A stretch of DNA of 64,000 nt from Nymphaea colorata. Its lineage: Eukaryota; Streptophyta; Magnoliopsida; Nymphaeales; Nymphaeaceae. The position numbers and the translations under genes were made by a program. A model generated the notes under the pieces. It made no database searches. It was not told the origin of the DNA and worked only from the letters and a program-made list of their open reading frames with translations. Shown piece by piece: positions 11,920 through 52,870 of this stretch; the first letter of the stretch is position 1; each line of letters starts with the position of its first letter. The stretch covers positions 33,515,706 through 33,579,705 of the forward strand of contig NC_045139.1 in the NCBI RefSeq assembly GCF_008831285.2, given 5' to 3'.

Positions 11920-12019
<100 letters not shown>

Positions 12020-12116
12020 TTGACTTTTGAAGCCAAATTCAAATCCAAAGTAAACATTTGATAATTCAAATATGGCAAATGACACATTTTATTCAAGTGT
12101 CATCCATTGGCATATC

Positions 12117-12311
12117 CGGGGCAGAGTCTGGATGTTTTTTAAGGGTGGGTCAAACGGTTCAACAAACTTATCGGAGTAGGACCAAACTAAATCAGAATTC
12201 AAAAAATACATTAGACAACTACAAAATTTAAATTTTTTTAATATAACCTTTTTTTCAGTTAGCTAGAATGAAGTCACGGCCTAAGTGGGCCCCCCTCTCC
12301 CTCCGCCCCTG
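12117..12311. mobile_element. hAT-like MITE, copy 1
   Basis: A 195-bp element with ends CGGGGCAGAG on the left and CAGGGGCGGAG on the right (reverse complement). It is flanked by near-identical 8-mers, GGCATATC at 12109-12116 and GGCATCTC at 12312-12319 (7 of 8). An 8-bp target duplication and CAGGG-type ends are characteristic of hAT elements. The interior is similar to the copy at 45699-45890. Confidence 0.65.
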
Positions 12312-35555: not shown

Positions 35556-38500
35556 ATGGCTGAGCAGGTTACTCTCTCTCTCTCTCTTGAGATACGTGGT
35601 AGCTTTCTGTTCTCCTGTATTACTGCCACAAAGGTTCTCATTGTCTTTTGGTAGATAATCGCAACATCCGCGGTGCATCTTCTTGGGGAATCCCTCTGGA
35701 TGGCAACCATTCGAAAGATCTATTTGGCGAAATGCCTGAGATTTTGTAGTTTTAGATTTATACAGTTCGCTCTATGCTACCAAAACAGTGGAAGTTTTTG
35801 GGTGGTCTTCCGTCTTTACGTGGCGGACATGATTTGCCGCTTGTTGTGGGAAGTGGAAAGACATGGCGTATTATCGTGCTTGTGTAGTATAGGAGAGAGG
35901 CAGTTGGTTTTTGAATTGATTCAAGTGTTCATCTCTTTCCTGTGTCTATTGTGATTTAAGTTAAATACTGCCCTTTGAAACCATTGTAAACATAATGATT
36001 TCTTGATGATTTAGTAGGGGATAAACTAGAAATGTGGTTAGTTCATTGCCTCGTCTATGCACTTTCTAGATGAAAGAAGTGTGGTAGTATAATAGCTTTC
36101 ATGTATATCATGACCTTGCAATGATAGAGAAAATTGATCAGAAGAATGTGATATGGTCAGTAACGTAATAATTTTCTTCTCACTCTGTAGTCATGTAACT
36201 AAAATCTGCGCGAGTCCTTGTTGCATATGCTTATCGGTGTTGGAGATTCATTGGACTTTACAGAGGAGATACCCCGAGTTACGACTGTGTCAACGATGTA
36301 ATATCGGGCGTTTTGTCTAATTGTTGGTTTTTTTTTTGTTTCTATCACATTAAGTATAAGTTAGTTGGGTCTCCCATCTTTCACCTTCCAAGGAAGAAAA
36401 TCAATACATTGATTTCTTGTTTCGGATGCTTGCAGACTGAGAAGGCGTTCCTTAAGCAACCCAAGGTCTTTCTAAGGTAAGGTTTGCCTAAATTTAGGCA
36501 TCCCATGCACTACGTCTGTGCACTTTTCATACATGAATCTATTGTGCAAATTCTTGCAGCTCAAAAAAATCTGGCAAGGGGAAAGGACCAGGAAAAGGTG
36601 GCAATCGATTTTGGAAGAACATAGGGCTGAAAATAAAGACTCCAAGGGAGGCTATTGAAGGTCGTGACTTTAATCACTCTTTAAATCAATTATCTGGTGT
36701 TCTTAGTATCTATTTTCTATCAACTTAATTGTTCTCTCTGTCAATAATGTCCTCATGGTATCCTGTACATAATTTGCCTTTTGTATTAGCTTTTTTAGAT
36801 TTATGTGAAGTCGTCATACAACGATGAAGAGAAATACCTTTCCTTGTAAAAGTTTTGTGCTTCTAGTTTTTTTTAATTTTAGCATCAACACTTTTTGTGA
36901 CTGCTAGGTAGTGTTGGTGTTCTAAAACATGAATGCACCTTTTTTGAGTGTGTATTTTCATTTGCAGAAATGAATTTTATTTGATGGATAGTTCTTCAGA
37001 ATAAGCTGGACTATGGATTTTTTACTTCACATGATAAAAACAAGTATTAGCACAGTTGTTCTGATTCTCGCTTGAAATAGTAATTGGCAAGGTAGTTTGG
37101 GATCTAAGATATTGTTTCTGACCATTCCATTAATATACCATCCTTTGTATCAAGAGATACACCATTTTAGATTTATGAAAGATTTGTTTTCCATGAATTT
37201 CAGTGCTTATTGGTATAATGTAATTAATACATGGTTAATTTACCTGTTAAAGATCGCCACAGAACTCTAGAAGGAACCATATAATCTTAAATTCTTCAAG
37301 AGAAAATCTTACTGTCACCGTAATTGAATTGGTGCTTACAAAGTGTGATGGGCTTTTAGTAAGCTAGCTTTTGTGCTTTACAGCGGGATCCAAATAAAGA
37401 AATATTGGCAAAAATTGCTGTATGAAGCATTGGTTAACATGTATGTCCCTTTGAGAGCTTTCGGTGTCTTCCTTGAGTTACTCTGATATCTTTATAATTC
37501 TTCTATTGATGGTTATTCTTAGAATATAATTTCCATGTGAGGAAGTTGAAAAGGGAATTCAGGTGGTATTGTGTAAAGCACCCAAGCAAAGAAAGGCATG
37601 GCATAGATTGTTTTAAGGAAATGCCTCAGCTATAGCCCATCTCTTTTTCCTGCATGATTTTGTTGAATTTGTCAGCTGCTTATTTTTTTCACGAGCAATT
37701 TGATGTTGATGTATGGCTTCTTTTTAAGAGTCAGCAGCAGGTGCCCTCTGCCCTGGCGTCCTGTCTGCCGCATGGAGCCAAGAGAAAACTTGCCAGATTG
37801 AAGATGGCTTGAATCTTTTATGTGGTTCATGCCACAAATTTTGGCAAAATCATTTTCCTATTCAGACACTCTTGGGGGTGTTGATGACAGTTCTGTGAAC
37901 AACACTATCTAATTTCAAGGGGGTATGGTGTAAACTGTAAAGCACCCCAGGCAAAGAAGGCATGACCTAAATTATTTAAGGAGATGCCCCAGCTGTGACC
38001 CATCCCTTTTTCTTGTGCCTTTTTAGTGAATTTGTCTAGCTGCTTATTTTTTCACGAACAATTTGATGTTGATATATGGCTCCTTTATAAGAGTCTTACA
38101 GCAGGTGCCCTCTGCCCTGGCCTCCTGTCTGCCGCATGGAGCCAAGAGAAAACTTGCCAGATCGAAGATGGCTTGAATCTTTTATGTGGTTCATACCACA
38201 AATTTTGGCAAAATCGTTTTTATATTCAGACGGTCTTGGGGGTGTTGATGACAGTTCTATTCTGCAACACCTACCCAATTTCAGGGGTTAGGGTGTAAAG
38301 CACCCCAAGCAAAGAAGGCATGACATAGATAAGAGGATGCCTCAGCTATTTTGCCCATCTCTTATGCCATCTTGTTGATTTTGTCTGGCATGTTGATGTA
38401 TGGCTATTGGCTCCTTTATAAGAGTCAACAGCAGGTGCCTCCTGCCTTGTCATCTTGTCTGCCGTGTGGAGCCAAAGAGAAAACTTGCCAGATTGAAAAT

Positions 38501-39628
38501 GGATTGAATCTTTCATGTGGTTCATACCACAAATTTTGGTTAAATCATTTTTCTATTCTGACACAATTGGAGCTCTCATGAACATGGGAGGGACCAGGGG
38601 AATAACATTCTGTAAAATTTTGAACTATGTGGACACCCGTATGAGGATTTTAGATGGGGTTCTTCTGCAATATGGGTGGGGTTGTTACGCATGCATGTTG
38701 GATGTCTATGCTTTCTTCTCCTAAAATATGAAGCCTTCTTATGTTAAGTGGAATTCTTAGCTAATGGTTAAGTTAACCAACCAGTGCTTTCAGTCTCTTT
38801 CAAGCATACTTGTTGATGTTATTGTAGATTGATCAGTTGTTTGATGGTCAAGTTTCCTGAACACGTGTTCCTTGTGTGCATACATAAAACTAGGGTTGGA
38901 AATGTTCCCCACTGTAGCGCACCATCCACCCCCCACCCAAAAAAAAAAAGGAAACCCCACACACGTACACATAGAGCTTATATTAGTTCAGAATCTCACA
39001 TTGTTGTATACTGTTACCTCAAAATGCGATCATTGTTGTGCAACTGTTTCATCATGCCTTGGAAGACTTGATTTGTTGATCAACAATGAAAGCTTTCTAT
39101 TTCAAGTTCTAATACTTGGTCTTCGCATTTGGCAGGAACATACATCGACAAGAAATGTCCCTTTACTGGTGGTGTCTCCATCAGGGGCCGTATATTGCAG
39201 GGAACTGTCTACAAGGCTAAGATGATGAGGACCATCATTGTCCGGCGGGATTCTCTTCATTATGTTAAGAAATACCAAAGGTGAGAAAATACATAGAGCA
39301 GCCGCTAAAGTCTTTGTCTGTTTGATTTAAAAAATATTAAAAATGCCTTCATGCTCTGATCCAGATTTGAGAAGCGTCACTCAAACACTCCTGCCCATGT
39401 ATCTCCGTGTTTCCGTGTGAAGGAGGGGGATCATGTCACCATTGGTCAGTGCAGGTGAGTCGCCAGTGGATTATTGCACCATCGGTTGAGTCTTCCTTTT
39501 ACCTTCAGCTAACCATTCTTCTTTGCCATGTTAACAGACCATTGTCAAAGACGGTTAGATTCAATGTGCTGAAAGTCACTCCTGCTGGTTCCACTGGTGG
39601 AGGCAAGAAAGCTTTCACGGGCATGTGA
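35556..39628 (+). CDS. RPS11: Cytosolic 40S ribosomal protein uS17 (S11)
   Basis: Six exons: 35556-35567, 36436-36476, 36560-36660, 39136-39280, 39365-39454 and 39538-39628, all GT-AG and in phase, giving 159 aa, the normal length for plant S11. Exon 1 codes only MAEQ. Recognisable segments are [52 protein letters not shown], the [18 protein letters not shown] segment, [18 protein letters not shown] and the C-terminal [14 protein letters not shown]. The protein is a core component of the small ribosomal subunit that binds 18S rRNA. A telo-box upstream fits coordinated ribosomal-protein expression. Intron 3 is about 2.5 kb and carries three tandem copies of a roughly 350-bp unit; the protein itself appears intact. 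Confidence 0.97.
37556..38590 (+). repeat. Three tandem copies of a ~350-bp unit in RPS11 intron 3
   Basis: Copies lie at about 37556-37910, 37911-38276 and 38277-38590. Each contains GTAAAGCACCC, CAGCAGGTGCC, GAGCCAAGAGAAAACTTGCC (slightly varied in copy 3) and CCACAAATTTTGG. Copies 1 and 2 are the closest; copy 3 is shorter and more diverged. No conserved reading frame runs through the unit. Confidence 0.9.
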
Positions 39629-39994: not shown

Positions 39995-42811
39995 TCAAAC
40001 AACTCTCTCTCTTTTGTGGAGGTCAATCACATCAACTCCCATTTTTTTAAAGAGTTTTTACACCTAATTTTCTTGTTAGAGTTGATACAATCTTCTCAAT
40101 CCTAACTAGAAAGCGATCTAATCCTGAACCTTTATCTCGTGGATCAATCACATGAACTTTCAGATTTTAGAACTGAACCTTGGATTTTCTCGCTAGAATT
40201 GATGCAGTCTCATCTCCCCTAACTTCAAAAGCAATTTTAACCCTAAACCGACCACGCCCAAGCTTCCCTTAGTCTAAAAGAAAAAAAATGGTTTCTCCAA
40301 AAACATGACGATGTGATTAGAAAAGCGACCAAAATATTTATACGGAAGAGCCACCTTTATCTTTTCTGAAGGAATTTATGGTAAGTCATTTTTCATTGGT
40401 GTGTAAAAAGTGGACAAGTTTGGTCCTAATGTTGTGGGGGTTGGGTAGCTCTTTTTACAAAGCTCGACTTGAGCATATGGGTCCCTCACGGTATCTTGTG
40501 TCAGACCCAATGTTACCGAAAGTTGTCTGGATTGGCAATTCGAACTGAATCGGCGACAAACAGATTCAATTTGGTGGTCCGTTTATTTGGTTGCCGGTTT
40601 AAAGGGATGCACAACTTTTTAAGGATTTGTATTTTGAATTTTCAAGCAAGGACTTTTCCACCGAAAGTGGTATTCTTTAAATAACTAACTCGCCCTTGAA
40701 AAATAAAAGAAAACATTAAAAAAAACTTTTTTCATATTTTAGTCAAATTTTTTATTATTATTTTCAGTTATTTTTTACAAACATTTTTTTAAACATATTC
40801 GGCCCAGTCACAGTCGATTCAGTTTAGCAAGTCAATTGACCTCTGACTTGCTTCAAGAAAACGACCTGCTGGGTAGGTTCGCCACGTGCTCTAGCCACCA
40901 TGCATATCTACCACCACCACTCTTTTTAAGTAACGCTACCAACCACCCAACTCATCCCTCAATTTCCCACAAATTACAAAGTTGTCAGCTAATTAGCAGA
41001 GGACCGTTAGGTAGAGCCGAAGGCATGCGCACGTTATTTTGCCTCTCGGTTGCCTTCTAGAAAGGGGCCTTTTAGTCTTTTTATAATTTTTTTTTCTTTT
41101 CATTTTCTTCCCCTTACACGGGAGATGACTTTTTTTTTTTTATGAAAACTTAATTTTCTGAAAGTTAAGTTCTAATGAGTTCTGAAAGCCCAGTTTTTGT
41201 ATTAGTCTAGCTAGACTCAAACTCACCCGTCAAAACTCAACTCGAACTCGACTGGTTCGTAAATGAGTCGAGGTCGAGTTCAAATATATGCTCGAAAGGT
41301 TAAACGAGTCAAGTTCAAATGGTAAGAGTTCGACTTCTTTTATACTAGACTCGACTCACGAAATATAATGAGAGAATACTTAAACAAGTAACAATTAAAT
41401 GAATTAAAAGAAACAAGACATGCTTAACATAAACAAGTTAAAGGAGTCGAGCTCGACGCTGCATTGGCAAGTCGAGTTCGAGATTGTTTTATGGAGCTCG
41501 GATCGAGTTCAAACTGAATTCGAGTTTTCTGAGTCGAGTCAAGCTGAGGCTGGCGTGCTGGGCCGGCTTGTGTGCATCCTATTTGTGTGTTATAGTTGAC
41601 ACACCGAAAACCCATTTTTTCATTAATAACATGAAGGGGCAACTTTTGACAAACTCAAGCTTTGTTAAAATTGAGTGTTTCCTAATCCCAGATTTGATGT
41701 CACCAAAACACTCTAAATACTTAAAAGCTCGTACGTGTTATCGGGTCCAGTTGTGTTGTAGATCAGAATGGAAATGAGTAGAAACATATGTACTTATATA
41801 TGATCGCTCTTCTTCAAGGACAAACCTATATATTTGTGCCCACTCACTCAAATTTCTAGCTCCGTCACTTGTTAAGCCAACATTAATGAACAGTACTGGA
41901 ATATATATACCTATATATATAGAAAAATTGAATGCTAACCTTAGTTATCTAAGGTCACCCAGCTCATTCATGAGGGCTGTTCGATACATTGTAAGGAATG
42001 GTTGAAATAAAAACAAGGAGAAAAGATTATGAACATTTTCATAGCACCTTTTTCTCTCTATTTTTCTCTCTTTATATATATATATATATACATAAAATAT
42101 ATGTGTGTGTGCATGCAATGCATTTGTATAGAAATTGCATGATTAAGTCTTTTTTTAAACTTTAGCCATGCAAGTTTGGGTTAAGTCGTTCGAAACGTAA
42201 CAATTGATTGTTGACGTATATACTTCTTTTTTATAAGCAGTTAGATTTGAAGGGGACCATTTGGATGTCATTTTTTGAAAAACTTTGTCTATGAAAACCA
42301 ACTTTTGTGAAGGGGATCATTTTTTGAAAAACTTTGTCAGGATAAAAATCTTTGGAGGGAGCCGGAAAATCAATTTTGTACCAAAAACTTGGGAGGAAGC
42401 AGGTTTTGAAGACCCTTTGGTTGAGTTTGATAGCCTAGATTTTGAATCAGGAGATCTTTTGTTTAATCAAACATAGGACGTCAACAACTACATGATCATG
42501 ATTCTAAGGTCAGACATAAAATTTGCTTTGGGCTGACCTGCAAACGGGTTTTTACAAACAAAAAGAGCCAACGATCTAAAATTTCATAAACTTTGTGCTT
42601 ACAAAATGCCAACCACATCGATCTGTCGTTTTTAATAGTAAACTTCATATGGTTTTTGTTAATATTTTGGAAGATTGCCTTTAAAAGATTATTACATAAG
42701 CAATATAATTGCACCAAATTTTATGCATTCACGTTCCACCGGATAGATTCTCATATTCTCCCCCAAGTTTAGAAATCCGTCTACTTCATCTTTTTTCTCT
42801 CCACATCCTAA
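39629..42811. other. Intergenic region between RPS11 and the F3H gene
   Basis: No gene is recognised. The region 41210-41600 is rich in GAGTCGAG/CTCGAACTCG units on both strands, the look of a GC-rich-ended non-autonomous element, but its limits and target duplication were not resolved. Short (TA)n runs occur near 41905-41925 and 42073-42095. A small direct repeat containing CATTTTTTGAAAAACTTTGTC occurs at about 42269 and 42319. Confidence 0.45.
39929..39992. repeat. (TA)n-(GA)n compound microsatellite
   Basis: A TA tract with one CA interruption runs directly into a GA tract. Confidence 0.92.
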
Positions 42812-43001: not shown

Positions 43002-44844
43002 ATGGCACCAACAGTGGTGGTGGAGTCGTCGCCGGCAGCTGCTCAGCCGAGACCGTTTCTGCCGACGCTGAACGAGGAGAAGACGCTGAGGGAGTCGTTC
43101 GTGCGAGACGAGGACGAGCGGCCGAAGGTGGCCTACAACGACTTCAGCAACGACGTCCCCGTCATCTCCCTGGCCGGCCTCGACTCCGACGACTCCCGCC
43201 GTGCCGAGGTCCGCGACGCCATCGTCCGGGCGTGCGAGGAGTGGGGAGTCTTCCAGGTCGTGGACCACGGCGTGGACGCCTCCCTCGTCTCCTCCATGAC
43301 GGAGATGGCGACCGCCTTCTTCAAGCTGCCCCCCGAGGAGAAGCTCCGGTTCGACATGTCCGGCGGGAAGCGCGGGGGGTTCATCGTGAGCAGCCACCTG
43401 CAGGGGGAGACGGTGAAGGACTGGCGGGAGATCGTGACGTTCTTCTCGTACCCGTTGGCGGGGAGGGACTACTCCCGGTGGCCGGACGTCCCCGAGGGGT
43501 GGCGGGCGGTGGCGGAGAGGTACAGCGAGGAGCTGATGGCGCTGGCGTGTAAGCTGCTGGGGGTGCTGTCGGAGGCGATGGGGCTGCCGTCGGAGGCCCT
43601 CAGGGATGCGTGCCGGGACATGGACCAGAAGATGGTGGTGAACTACTACCCCCCGTGCCCGCAGCCGGACCTGACTCTGGGGCTGAAGCGGCACACCGAT
43701 CCCGGCACCATCACCCTGCTGCTGCAGGACCTGGTCGGCGGCCTGCAGGCCACCAGGGACGGCGGCAAAACCTGGATCACCGTCCAGCCCATCGCCGGCG
43801 CCTTCGTCGTCAACCTCGGCGACCACGGCCATGTGAGTTACTGCTGCTTGTGCTTTCTTTTACGAAAATTTTACAATCAAAGGCCATCATTTACTCATTA
43901 ATTATATACGGTCACCACGTTCTTGAGTTTTTTGCTTTTACTTTTTTTTTTTTGTTACGACCTTTTCCAGCTGGCTATTACCATCAATGAGATACATATT
44001 TTTTCAATATTTCGGAAATTTTTATTCCAAAATAACAGAAATGATGGTGACCTTTTACCTTTTGTTAAAGCGAAAGAAACGTTTTCAACTTGAAAGAATT
44101 TTGATGGAAAGAGTTAAAAACTCTTCCCATGATTTTACTTTTTTTTTTTTTAACTTTTGAACTTTCTTTTTACAGTTTGTCAGCATAACATGCTGTATAA
44201 AAAAAAAAAGGAAAACAAAAGGCTCTTTTTGACTGAATTCTCTTTCTAGAAATGCACATCATGCGAACACAAGTCTCAGAATTGGAGAATGTTAAAATAA
44301 ATGCCTTCCTTGGGACACTGTGTCCATGTGTTCCGCTGTCCCACGTTTGGATTCACTGACAATGGGACACCTTCTCACTGATATTCAACTAATTTTTAGC
44401 ACAACACGAGGTGATTCAAAGTTAAATTCAATTTCGATATAATAAAAAGTTTTAATACTAAGTGTTTCATAAATCTACCTCAAAGATTGGGAGAGTGTCC
44501 CTAAATTTAAGGTCTAACCGGTGCTGTGTGCATTTCTGCAGTACCTTAGCAACGGAAGGTTCATGAACGCGGATCACCAGGCGGTCGTGAACGCAAACTG
44601 CAGCCGCCTATCGATCGCCACGTTCCAGAATCCGTCGCCGGACGCAATCGTGTACCCATTGAAGATCAGAGAGGGAGAGGCGTCGATAATGGAGGAGCCC
44701 ATCACCTTTGCAGAGATGTACAAGAGGAAGATGGCCAGAGACCTGGAGCTCGCCAGGCTCAAAAAGCTTGCCAAGGAGGACAAAAGCGAGCAGCAGGTCG
44801 AGGAGATCGCCAAAGCCAAATCGATCAACGAAATTCTGGCCTAA
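43002..44844 (+). CDS. F3H: Flavanone 3-hydroxylase (naringenin 2-oxoglutarate 3-dioxygenase)
   Basis: Two exons, 43002-43832 and 44542-44844, joined in phase 0 after GDHGH, give 377 aa, slightly over the usual length of about 365. F3H hallmarks are [55 protein letters not shown] and the C-terminal [14 protein letters not shown]. Iron ligands are H231, D233 and H289; 2-oxoglutarate contacts are R299 and S301 (RLS). The enzyme converts flavanones such as naringenin to dihydroflavonols in the cytosol, early in flavonol, anthocyanin and proanthocyanidin synthesis. The start is placed at MAPTVVV because of the TATA box and the family's usual MAP start. The C-terminal extension after KLAKEDK is longer than many homologues. 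Exon 1 is very GC-rich compared with its surroundings. An intron found inside the first exon region in many dicot F3H genes is absent. Confidence 0.96.
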
Positions 44845-45072: not shown

Positions 45073-45698
45073 TTACGAGGGTGGGTGTGGGCCGTGTGGT
45101 CAACTGACCACACAACCTTACACTTAGTGTTTATATTACAGCACTTTTATTAACCTAGTCAGTTCCGTGGAAGATGGAAATTGAATTGAATCCACCAAAA
45201 CTGTTTCTAATGAACGGACAGACAAAGAACACTGTGCATGACATATCTTCTTGGCCCACTGCATATAACCAGCTTCAATTACATAAATCAAATAAAAATC
45301 ATTTGCCGATGTAAATGTATTTATGTATATGTATAATTTTTCAGAATATATATAAATGGGAAGAGACATAAAATTAATTAAGATACATAACACACCTAAA
45401 AATAATAAAATCGATGATATTGCACATGTTACCCTCATAGATATATATCAGTAGTGAATCAAATCTATTTGCCACCGATTCAAATCAAATTAGCTATTTG
45501 AGCTTATTCAAACTTATTGTACTGTTCTCGTTAAAACTTGTGTTTCTTGGTTTTTCTTCTTTCTCGGAAATGTTTTATTTTTTGAACCTGCAGACATTTA
45601 CTTTTATATAAAATACAAGGAAAATAAGTTAATCTTGTTCTTTAGGACATTTGTCTTTTCATTTTCTTAGTTCATGACACACTAACGGGTCCGTAAAT

Positions 45699-45890
45699 CA
45701 GGGCCAGAGCTAGGATTTTTTCAAAAGCAGGTCAAACAGTTCAACGCTGAATCGAGTAAGACCAAACTGAACTCAAGTTTAAAAAATACATTACACAACT
45801 AAAATTTTTTCAAATTTTGTTTTCTCAGTTAGTTAGGGTGGGGCCATGGCCTAAGTGGCCCCACCCTCCCTCCACCCCTGACTAGGATCG
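45699..45890. mobile_element. hAT-like MITE, copy 2
   Basis: A 192-bp element begins CAGGGCCAGAGCTAGGATTT and ends with the inverse of CAGGGGTGGAG. The interior blocks AGTAAGACCAAACTGAA, AAAAAATACATTA and CTAAGTGG match the copy at 12117-12311. The flanking 8-mers do not match well, so the target duplication has decayed or the limits are slightly off. Confidence 0.6.
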
Positions 45891-47251
45891 ACAAACCCGG
45901 CCCAAAGGTGCGCGAACTGATTCTATTCCGATCAGCATATGAGATATTTCAATGGGATAATTAAGCAACACCGCCTTTTCACGTGGCAGTAAAATGGCCA
46001 AAGTGGCATCCTTTATTTATTTCATTATTTTATTCATGAACTTGTTTATATGAGTCATACTGACGTGCATTAATATGGTTAATGACTAAAATACCTTTAG
46101 TTCACATTGAAAAAGAAATTTTTTTGTAAAGATAAAAATTAAAATGAAAAAAATTAAAGACTATGAAAGACATTTCTTTTTAATAAATTACCAAAATGTC
46201 TTTCCCTTCTTTACAAAGGGCCTCGGCTAAAAGGGCTTCCATCTCATCCTCACAAGATATCAAACCTGCTTTTGATGCCTTGGGGGCAAAATGGAAACCA
46301 TCGTGATGATCCGAGCTTTCCGTCGTAATTATGTCGTTGATCTGTGAGGGTGCCTGAAACGTTGGCTCCAGATCCAATTAATCAATAACATCAAATTTTA
46401 TACAAGAAATGAAACATGCGATTGGATTTGCATTTCATTTTAAATAAATGACCCAATCTGGTTGAAGTGGGATTCAATTTCAAATAATTATCACACATCT
46501 AACATCCATACATTTGCAGAATTGGTTCTTAACATATCATAATTATGTATTTTGTATTCCTTTTATATATCTTAAATTTGACAAAATCTGATATAGTACA
46601 TATAAGAAGTTTTCCATTTACATTTGAATCCAAATATACGAATATCTGATAAATAATATATTTAGTTAAGTTCTTCTCAATCAAGATATGAGAGATTAGT
46701 CCGAACAAGTGAAAGAACAAGTAGTTTGTTAGTTACTCCATGCTGCGATAAACCATGTAAGAGGCAACGGTTCTGCTCAAAATTAAAATTTACACTTTTA
46801 CACATTATCAGAATCATGCTACGACTGCATTCGCTCTCTCTTTATTTTTCTCTTTTAAGATATATATATATATATATATATATTGGTATAAACCAGACCG
46901 TTAGGTCAGGGACAAAAACCAGATGCTCTAATTTTTGCTGAAATTTTATTTTCAATATAATGTAAACATCTTAATACATTTATTAAAAATATTTTGATAT
47001 AAAACATGTTTTACGTTTTGTTTCAAGTTATTTTTATGCAAAATATGGATTTTAATACTTTCAAAATTTTGATGCTATGGGAGTCATTCTTTTTTGCTTA
47101 TTTGTAAAATTTAAAAACACCAATAAAGCACCACGCAACTTAATATATGTTTTGCATCAACCTATTCTTTAGGTCATATCAGTTTAAACATCAAAATTAA
47201 TGTGAGTGTTTTTTTTTTTTCATTGCTTAGTGGTCTGGTTTCTACCAATCT

Positions 47252-47275
47252 TTCTCTCTCTCTCTCTCTCTCCCC

Positions 47276-47310
<35 letters not shown>
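47252..47310. repeat. (CT)n-(TA)n compound microsatellite
   Basis: A CT tract, a short C run and a TA tract lead directly into the left arm of the hairpin at 47311. Confidence 0.92.
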
Positions 47311-47313
<3 letters not shown>

Positions 47314-47410
47314 CATATCTACCTACCAAGCATTTATAAACAATTTTCAAGATATATATATATATATATCTTGAAAATTGATTATAAATGTTTGGTAGGT
47401 AGATATGAAT
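47311..47410. repeat. Near-perfect 100-nt inverted repeat (hairpin)
   Basis: Two 50-nt arms pair at 48 of 50 positions around a centre at 47360/47361. The outer arm reads ATTCATATCTACCTACCAA and the inner part ends in AATTTTCAAG followed by TA units. One exception would be a G-U wobble in RNA and the other an A-A mismatch. There is no unpaired loop apart from the few central TA bases that must turn. Confidence 0.95.
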
Positions 47411-48344
47411 AATAAATATAAATGCACGTATGTTTGAGGTAACATATGGATTTTGGTTTCATTTTCAGGGGCGTTGATTTTGAATTTGTCTTGTACCGAT
47501 GTTTGGGTTTTGTCTCGTACAGTTCCGATTGTCCTTATCTCTACGAGTATTATCTCCTCACGCTCTCTAAAAATAGAGAGGCTGGTTTGTCCTGTATGTT
47601 CAGAACTGCTTGCCAAGGGAGGACAGCGACATGATCTCCGGGGACACGAGGAAGGAGTAGACGCTTTCACTTGAGATGCGGTTGAACAATGCCATGTGCC
47701 GTCGCTTATACCTTTCTTGTGCACAGCAGTGAAATTATAACCTCATATTTCTTTTTTAACTCAGGAAAATTGATGAGATGTTGCTTCAGTGATGAATTTG
47801 ACAAATGATGCCTGATTGGTTCGGTGCTCGAACGTGTGAGTTGCATATTTTAAAGGTAGGTTGAATCTGATTGTTCCGTTGGATTGAACTTGATAAAGGA
47901 GTAAAGGAGCCAGCCTCTTATGAGAGCAAAATGAAAAAAAAATATGAAAGTTATTTTTTTTTTCATGAAATGCGAAACTACCAATAATAAATCAAATAAT
48001 ACTGTAAAATTTGCACTATTATCAAGTAATGAACTTTTTGTGAAAAAATGGCTAAAATAATCCTTGAGAAACTATAAATATTCCACCCTAGCTTGATTGG
48101 ACTTGTCAGTTGTGTTCGATAGGAGGCCAAAAAAGGTTTAACCCTTCAAATTGTGTCATCTTCAAACAGGACCGTAGTATAAGGAGGTTCATAAAACTCT
48201 ATGATTTTTTATCAAGATCAATTGTGCTACTTTTTTAAACAACTCAAAACTTGGTATGTGAACTCGAAAGACTACTTCATGACAGTGGGAAAATAATCAC
48301 TCACTTAAAATTAAAAAAAAAAAAAAAACAAGTATAAGCCATTT

Positions 48345-48603
48345 AGGATCCGAAACCAAGCATCTGCGTTGTTAGATCAAACATAAAATCTTCAACTATT
48401 TTATTCGAATTATAAGTTCCTTTTATTAATCTTTGCACTTAGGACTTCGGGCACCAACGTAGCTAGTGAGGTAAAACTAAGGCATGTCGATTGTTGGCTG
48501 AAAATGGCTTTGAAACTCCATGCACCCTGAAGCAGTTGCTTATACCAACCTCACAAACCTTACTTATTTTTATTTTTATGTTAATAATTTCATATATTTA
48601 GTT

Positions 48604-48678
<75 letters not shown>

Positions 48679-48990
48679 TAGGTGCCCCTTAAAACATTAA
48701 GTGTTATTGAACTAGTGCTCCCGCCAGCCAAAATTTCTAGATCCGCTAGTGCCCTCAAGCGTCGACTCCACTCCCTTTTTTGTCTTGAGGGAATCAGAAG
48801 CGATCTCGGACCCTGAACTGTGCATTTGTGTCCATAGGTTAAACATGCAATCTTCAACTTTTTTTAGTTGAATTATAAGCTGCTTTTACTAATCTTTGCG
48901 CATAGGACAACAAGAAAGCTAGTGAAGTAAAGGTGTGTTAATTGTTAGCCTGCTAGGTGAAAACTACTCCTTACTCCCAAACCCCTTCTT
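48345..48990 (+). repeat. Diverged direct repeat flanking a TA tract
   Basis: About 48345-48530 and 48800-48990 share AATCTTCAACT, GAATTATAAG, AATCTTTGC and a GCTAGTGA.GTAAA segment in the same order. Between them lie the TA tract and a CCCGCCAGCCAAAATTTCTA segment resembling one end of a GGGGCGGAGC-type element. Confidence 0.6.
48607..48677. repeat. Long (TA)n microsatellite
   Basis: A pure TA tract of about 35 units, flanked by the two copies of a diverged direct repeat. Confidence 0.95.
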
Positions 48991-49661: not shown

Positions 49662-50084
49662 TCAGTAATCTCGTCTCCAAAGAGGTCTGTACCACTTTGA
49701 GTGGAAGGACGATTGGTAGGAAACCATGAGCAGAAGCAGCAGCAGCAGCAGCGCCACCCCCCACGGCGAGCTCCCGGCCCTGTGTATGGACTCCCTCTCC
49801 CACCGCGGCCCCCGGAAGGCGAGCCTCCCGTTCACCGACACGCTCCGCACCAGGAGCACCAGCAGTACGGGGAGGACGAAGAAGAGGAGGTTCAGCTGGT
49901 TCATGGCGGAGTGGACCTGGCTGCTGTAGGCAGAGTAGCTGGACAGCGAGAGGAAGAGGACGGCGATGACGAAGATGAAGACGAAGGGCAAGGGAGGAGG
50001 GGAGAGGGAGTCGACGAACTGGCTCTTCCACCCCCTCCGCCACTCTGACCCCTTCCTTTCCTTCGATAACCACCACGACGCCAT
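49662..50084 (-). CDS. Small multi-pass membrane protein, unknown function
   Basis: A single-exon, 140-aa frame starting ATG at 50084 and ending TGA at 49664-49662. The N-terminus MASWWLSKERKGSEWRRGW is basic and Trp-rich. Three hydrophobic segments follow at about residues 31-53, 65-82 and 107-123. The middle of the protein, SAYSSQVHSAMNQLNLLFF, joins the first two. The layout (short Trp/Arg N-terminus, PPLP before helix 1, QVH between helices, MNQLNLLFFVLPVLL) resembles an uncharacterised plant family of small transmembrane proteins, from memory only. A TATA box lies about 52 bp upstream. Longer overlapping frames (to 50226 and 50233 on the same strand) are GC-driven shadows with Arg/Pro-rich low-complexity translation. 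No function can be assigned. Confidence 0.8.
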   Translation of the reverse strand: MASWWLSKERKGSEWRRGWKSQFVDSLSPPPLPFVFIFVIAVLFLSLSSYSAYSSQVHSAMNQLNLLFFVLPVLLVLLVRSVSVNGRLAFRGPRWERESIHRAGSSPWGVALLLLLLLLMVSYQSSFHSKWYRPLWRRDY

Positions 50085-52668: not shown

Positions 52669-52870
52669 CAGGGGCGGAGGGAAGGGGGGCCGCCTAGGCC
52701 ATGGCCCCACCTCAGCCAATGAAATTTCTTTTTTTTTTTTATATATTGAAAAAAATAATATTTTTTAATTATGTAAGGTATTTTTTGTATTATAATTCGG
52801 TTTGGCCCTACCCGGATCCAGAAGTCGAACTGCCGGCCCGCCCCTGAAGAAAATCCTGGCTCCACCCCTG
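52669..52870. mobile_element. hAT-like MITE, copy 4, opposite orientation
   Basis: A 202-bp element with ends CAGGGGCGGAGG and, in reverse complement, CAGGGGTGGAGCCAGGATTT. It is flanked by ACTGTGGG (52661-52668) and CCTGTGGG (52871-52878), 7 of 8 identical, as expected for a hAT 8-bp target duplication. It lies inverted relative to copies 1-3 as judged by the longer conserved end. Confidence 0.7.

Follow-up and report, generated by a model that had tools for sequence, protein, structure and literature searches.

Position 47311 of a 64,000-nt stretch of Nymphaea colorata DNA marks the beginning of a 100-nt, almost perfect hairpin with no spacer between its arms, and this locus raises the question of how such a structure came about. 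An earlier note on this DNA had offered three readings, namely a young small-RNA precursor, a remnant of a fold-back transposon, and a cruciform-forming site that arose at the adjacent TA tract. We examined the pairing of the arms, the sequences around them and the possible relatives of the hairpin in the whole 64,000-nt stretch (hereafter the window, to which all positions refer). Results indicate that the palindrome is real and lies in non-coding DNA, and that it is most likely either an ordinary fold-back repeat or a copying accident.

Structure of the palindrome and its level above chance

The features of the locus are collected in Table 1. The hairpin had been described as two 50-nt arms pairing at 48 positions, and both the count of Watson-Crick pairs and the extent of the spacer-free structure (47311-47410) proved exact. 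The A-A mismatch reported at one of the two remaining positions is A47340/A47381, at arm position 30. The other one, G47330/T47391 at arm position 20, had been described as a G-U wobble in RNA; this is correct for a transcript of the + strand, whereas in a transcript of the - strand the same position is a C-A mismatch. The inner nine pairs belong to the (AT)9 tract, which would be self-pairing however it came about; this leaves 41 informative nt per arm, with 39 positions pairing. AT-rich sequence lies on both flanks of the palindrome, which continues in an imperfect form out to 47298-47423 (63-nt arms, 92%).

Table 1. Features of the hairpin locus, from left to right (positions in the window)
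Feature	Position	Strand	Remarks
(AT)12 tract, left end of TIR element	46860..46883		One base in common with the element, 46883
TIR element, 366 bp	46883..47248		17-nt terminal inverted repeats, 16/17; longer imperfect TIR
CT-rich stretch, last six bases C (47272-47277)	47250..47277		Between TIR element and (AT)n tract
(AT)16.5 microsatellite, 33 nt	47278..47310		Stops at last base before left arm
Possible 5-bp target-site duplication ATAAT, left copy	47308..47312		Not significant
Left arm of hairpin	47311..47360	+	Unique part 47311-47351, then first half of (AT)9 centre
(AT)9 tract, self-complementary, fold-back centre	47352..47369		
Right arm of hairpin	47361..47410	+	Reverse complement of left arm, 2 differences
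Possible 5-bp target-site duplication ATAAT, right copy	47409..47413		Not significant

The pairing is indeed far beyond chance, as had been claimed: with the local base composition, 39 of 41 informative pairs correspond to P ~1e-19 per centre and to ~6e-15 over 64,000 centres. An ungapped palindrome scan of the window (+1/-3, loop up to 12) revealed three non-overlapping palindromes with a score of at least 18, located at 11922-12017 (score 48), 47311-47410 (44) and 48607-48676 (35), the first and the last of which are pure TA tracts. When sequences were resampled with a first-order Markov model (loop up to 10), the maximum scores were 13 for 60 resamplings of the window and 12 for 200 of the intergenic stretch. 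The minimum free energy of the 47311-47410 RNA is -62.6 kcal/mol (z -19.2) for the + strand vs. -58.7 kcal/mol for a transcript of the - strand, and that of the palindrome as DNA is -41.6 (z -17.4); none of the 200 shuffles was as good, either for the + strand RNA or for the DNA.

The two differences between the informative arms amount to a divergence of 2/41, or 4.9%. Such a value is compatible with the recent origin that had been proposed from the near-identity of the arms, yet its 95% interval, 0.6-16.5%, is too wide for dating. As DNA, the palindrome may extrude a cruciform, with its AT centre helping. Palindromic AT-rich repeats of several hundred bp occur at human translocation breakpoints and are known from rearrangements. 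The hairpin is like them in being an AT-rich, spacer-free palindrome capable of forming a cruciform, but it measures 100 bp and is known here from sequence, not from rearrangements.

Genomic setting and neighbouring repeats

By its gene content, the window looks like DNA of a flowering plant. The hairpin lies within a 4.8-kb gap, with a 2-oxoglutarate dioxygenase gene on one side and an opposing open reading frame on the other. The upstream gene (43002-44844, with one intron as modelled) encodes a 2-oxoglutarate/Fe(II) dioxygenase, which has relatives of solved structure and may resemble flavanone 3-hydroxylase. Its first exon, starting at 43002, matches the Pfam domains DIOX_N (1e-24) and 2OG-FeII_Oxy (2.6e-21), and the last exon, ending at 44844, carries the same Pfam domain on with a match below the cut-off (E 0.0098). 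The first exon is GC-rich, with 68% G+C. The downstream open reading frame runs on the opposite strand from an ATG at 50084 to a stop at 49662; its status as a gene is putative, and no Pfam match was found for it (49665-50084). From the hairpin it is approximately 2.5 kb back to the stop codon of the dioxygenase and approximately 2.25 kb to the stop of the opposing frame. As far as tested, the claim of a location outside genes is correct for the hairpin, with the qualification that two stop-to-stop frames of the - strand overlap it (47174-47458 and 47347-47742), neither of them with a Pfam match.

The TA tract previously noted beside the hairpin is a 33-nt (AT)n microsatellite, and the first base of the left arm follows immediately after its end. 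TA repeats border the palindrome on the left side only; the right flank is AT-rich and contains no TA microsatellite. From left to right, the locus is composed of the (AT)12 tract, the TIR element, the CT-rich stretch with its C6 end, the (AT)16.5 tract and the hairpin. With up to 3 mismatches allowed, the pattern of the 17-nt ends of the TIR element occurs just twice in the window, at these ends themselves. At this threshold 2 or more matches were also obtained in 5 of 100 shuffles; in the window both match the pattern fully. Alignment of the longer TIRs inward gave a score of 50, whereas the best of 1000 mononucleotide shuffles scored 42, and the 46883-47248 segment looks like a microsatellite-associated MITE. 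In a BLAST search of the window this element found itself and 9 matches of 13-17 nt, two of which were its own ends. Kinship of the hairpin arms with the TIR element was considered and dropped: local alignments of the two scored 21-25, which is the level of shuffled sequence (means 21.5-23.6, maxima 32-34, with 300 shuffles for each alignment), and they are therefore unrelated.

No second copy of either arm was found within the 64-kb window. When the AT centre was left out, BLAST of each arm against the window retrieved, apart from the query arm, only its partner and one weak match (16 nt or 11 nt, E 0.097 and 0.38), and with as many as 3 mismatches allowed, 21-mers of the left arm did not recur elsewhere in the window. 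Exact matches to a 26-nt arm pattern numbered 0 in both the prokaryote and the virus collections, neither of which covers plants.

An ATAAT direct repeat encloses 47313-47408 and could represent a 5-bp target-site duplication. However, a duplication of at least 5 bp was matched by chance in 6.8% of random intergenic right flanks and in 16.5% of AT-rich ones, and because of this chance level it was rejected as proof of insertion. Longer direct repeats, of 9 or 10 bp and allowing one mismatch, were not found for symmetric boundaries from 47299 to 47325. Near-repeats of 8 bp with one mismatch are present in the flanks, as expected between AT-rich sequences. An insertion inside a TA tract need not leave a visible duplication of 9-10 bp.

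Further repeats were observed in the window. A tandem repeat at 37558-38564 consists of approximately 2.9 copies of a unit of about 364 bp (79% matches). A dispersed repeat is present at 12114-12311 and 45697-45880 (73% alike), and a 44-nt piece of its second copy occurs inverted at 52669-52711 (89%). A direct repeat of about 140 bp (48336-48475 and 48798-48931, 72% alike) flanks a 74-nt TA tract, 48607-48680. Finally, a 42-nt stretch composed of CT-rich and (AT)n sequence is found twice, at 42053-42094 and 46837-46878 (88% alike), and its second copy leads into the (AT)12 tract that borders the TIR element on the left.

The hairpin compared with TA-associated elements

We prefer, tentatively, to regard the palindrome as a short, non-coding, palindromic MITE-like fold-back element at a TA microsatellite, beside a second and unrelated TIR element. 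Two of the three readings proposed before, the fold-back remnant and the TA-born cruciform site, fit the geometry of the locus, that is an (AT)n centre, a 33-nt (AT)n tract at the edge of the left arm and a TIR element beyond it; by contrast, nothing that was tested specifically supports the third, a small-RNA precursor. Like a MITE, the hairpin has terminal inverted repeats (48 of 50 pairs), no coding capacity and a length of 100 bp, which is within the limit of under 500 bp used for such elements (PMC8449440). The start of the left arm at the exact end of the (AT)16.5 tract and the presence of the TIR element across the same tract both count for an element, as does the possible 5-bp duplication, although this is not significant. 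Counting against it, the 64-kb window holds no second copy of the arms, the right flank is not a TA microsatellite, the 9-10 bp duplication typical of Mutator-type elements of this sort was not detected, the size of about 96-100 bp is below that of SaTar (about 400-1700 bp) and MuTAnT elements (from about 200 bp upwards), and the arms are unlike the TIR element.

If the hairpin is a fold-back element, it would have been inserted by a transposase at a TA-rich site, and the insertion would belong to a modular array in which microsatellite-associated elements lie side by side without nesting, and in which the CT-rich, C6 and (AT)n tract joins the hairpin to the unrelated TIR element. Its action would presumably be passive, with no dedicated gene function. 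Read-through transcription could produce near-perfect double-stranded RNA, which may act as a substrate for Dicer-like enzymes and cause local silencing.

By analogy, the pair formed by the hairpin and the TIR element resembles the published arrays of TA-microsatellite MITEs, including MuTAnT, SaTar and Ac-mMITE. MuTAnTs are Mutator-like MITEs of Medicago truncatula, described as located mostly in (TA)n tracts; 218 of them were found, mostly of 200-300 bp, and their ends begin with up to four G (PMC4486113). The type element is almost spacer-free, since its 292 bp include two TIRs of 144 bp, and duplications of 9 nt are reported for the 14 copies outside perfect TA tracts (PMC4486113). The hairpin shares with MuTAnTs an almost spacer-free fold-back structure, a TA microsatellite, an AT-rich surrounding and a distance of a few kb from genes. 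It differs in its length of about 100 bp, in the single copy seen in the 64-kb window, in having TA on one side and in ends that do not start with G.

In the SaTar arrays described from guayule and rice, unrelated elements are joined by microsatellites and are not nested; the guayule SaTars measure approximately 400-1700 bp, and members with 10-bp duplications are reported in 11 of 15 families (PMC5907723). The N. colorata locus is similar in that unrelated neighbours are linked by a microsatellite and neither interrupts the other, but the hairpin has neither the size of about 400-1700 bp nor the 10-bp duplication. For the pineapple Ac-mMITEs, TA is reported on one side or on both in approximately 74%, and GA or CT tracts lie beside the ends of some (PMC8449440). 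Going by this description of their layout, the TIR element at 46883-47248 is similar, with TA beside one end and a CT tract beside the other.

Other possible origins of the hairpin and their meaning

The palindrome may instead be a one-off inverted duplication produced by template switching, which results in a single-copy, near-perfect hairpin; we see this as possible, at a somewhat lower probability than the insertion of an element. In such an event, the (AT)n end of a strand being made in replication would fold back on the strand itself, and synthesis would copy the 41-nt segment as far as the next TA tract, realign in AT-rich sequence and continue. The self-complementary (AT)9 centre is a plausible site for self-priming, and the duplicated segment (47311-47351) coincides precisely with the non-TA sequence that separates two TA tracts. 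As the segment takes in the whole stretch between these tracts, both switch points fall in TA or AT-rich sequence. The lack of a significant target-site duplication and of any other copy within the window are also in favour of template switching. The same mechanism has been published as a source of perfect hairpins in one event, on the basis of mutation patterns around human microRNAs and in rRNA genes, but that work covers mammalian microRNA loci and rRNA, and its main text does not use the word 'plant' (PMC8794818). The hairpins described there are likewise near-perfect reverse-complement repeats that arise in one event and later decay by point changes; they are known from the surroundings of human microRNAs and from rRNA genes, whereas for the present locus such an event is proposed from the layout of the arms and TA tracts.

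Template switching would be less expected if TA tracts seldom gave rise to hairpins, and results for the rest of the window point in this direction. Fold-back flanks were absent at all 10 other TA tracts of at least 12 nt, with a best flank match of 19/35 vs. 33/35 at the hairpin. This rules out a general fold-back habit of the TA tracts in the window, and such events are thus not common there. That the hairpin was newly born in a single event, with replication folding back on the TA microsatellite and copying the unique segment between the TA tracts, appears to us unlikely.

A young MIR or siRNA gene, that is a transcribed foldback from which Dicer-like processing would release 21-24-nt RNAs with a target, is improbable. 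The near-perfect 41-nt informative arms and the very stable fold would suit such a gene, and the palindrome shows the low number of duplex mismatches expected of a MIR foldback. Plant MIR genes are moreover reported to derive from inverted duplications and from MITEs (PMC3237417; PMC3086885). However, structure by itself does not distinguish a gene of this kind from inert palindromes. A search of the complete window against Rfam yielded 0 hits at the gathering score, as would likewise be the case for a new family, and with up to 3 mismatches allowed the window contains no target-like match to the left arm. A functional small-RNA gene at the palindrome is possible but unsupported. Spacer-free palindromes and TA tracts are difficult to sequence and assemble, but a fold-back artefact would more likely have identical arms and a larger inversion, whereas the arms differ here at two positions and the sequences on the two sides of the palindrome are unlike, and a sequencing or assembly artefact from a fold-back read is very improbable.

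If our preferred reading is correct and the hairpin is a TA-associated fold-back element, it would be one more example of the known pattern of microsatellite-linked MITE arrays. As a single-copy product of template switching, it would instead provide a clean test case for TA microsatellites seeding new hairpins in plants. New hairpins are raw material for young small-RNA genes, and should the birth in a single event prove true, plant TA microsatellites would be seeds of new hairpin, or proto-small-RNA, loci.
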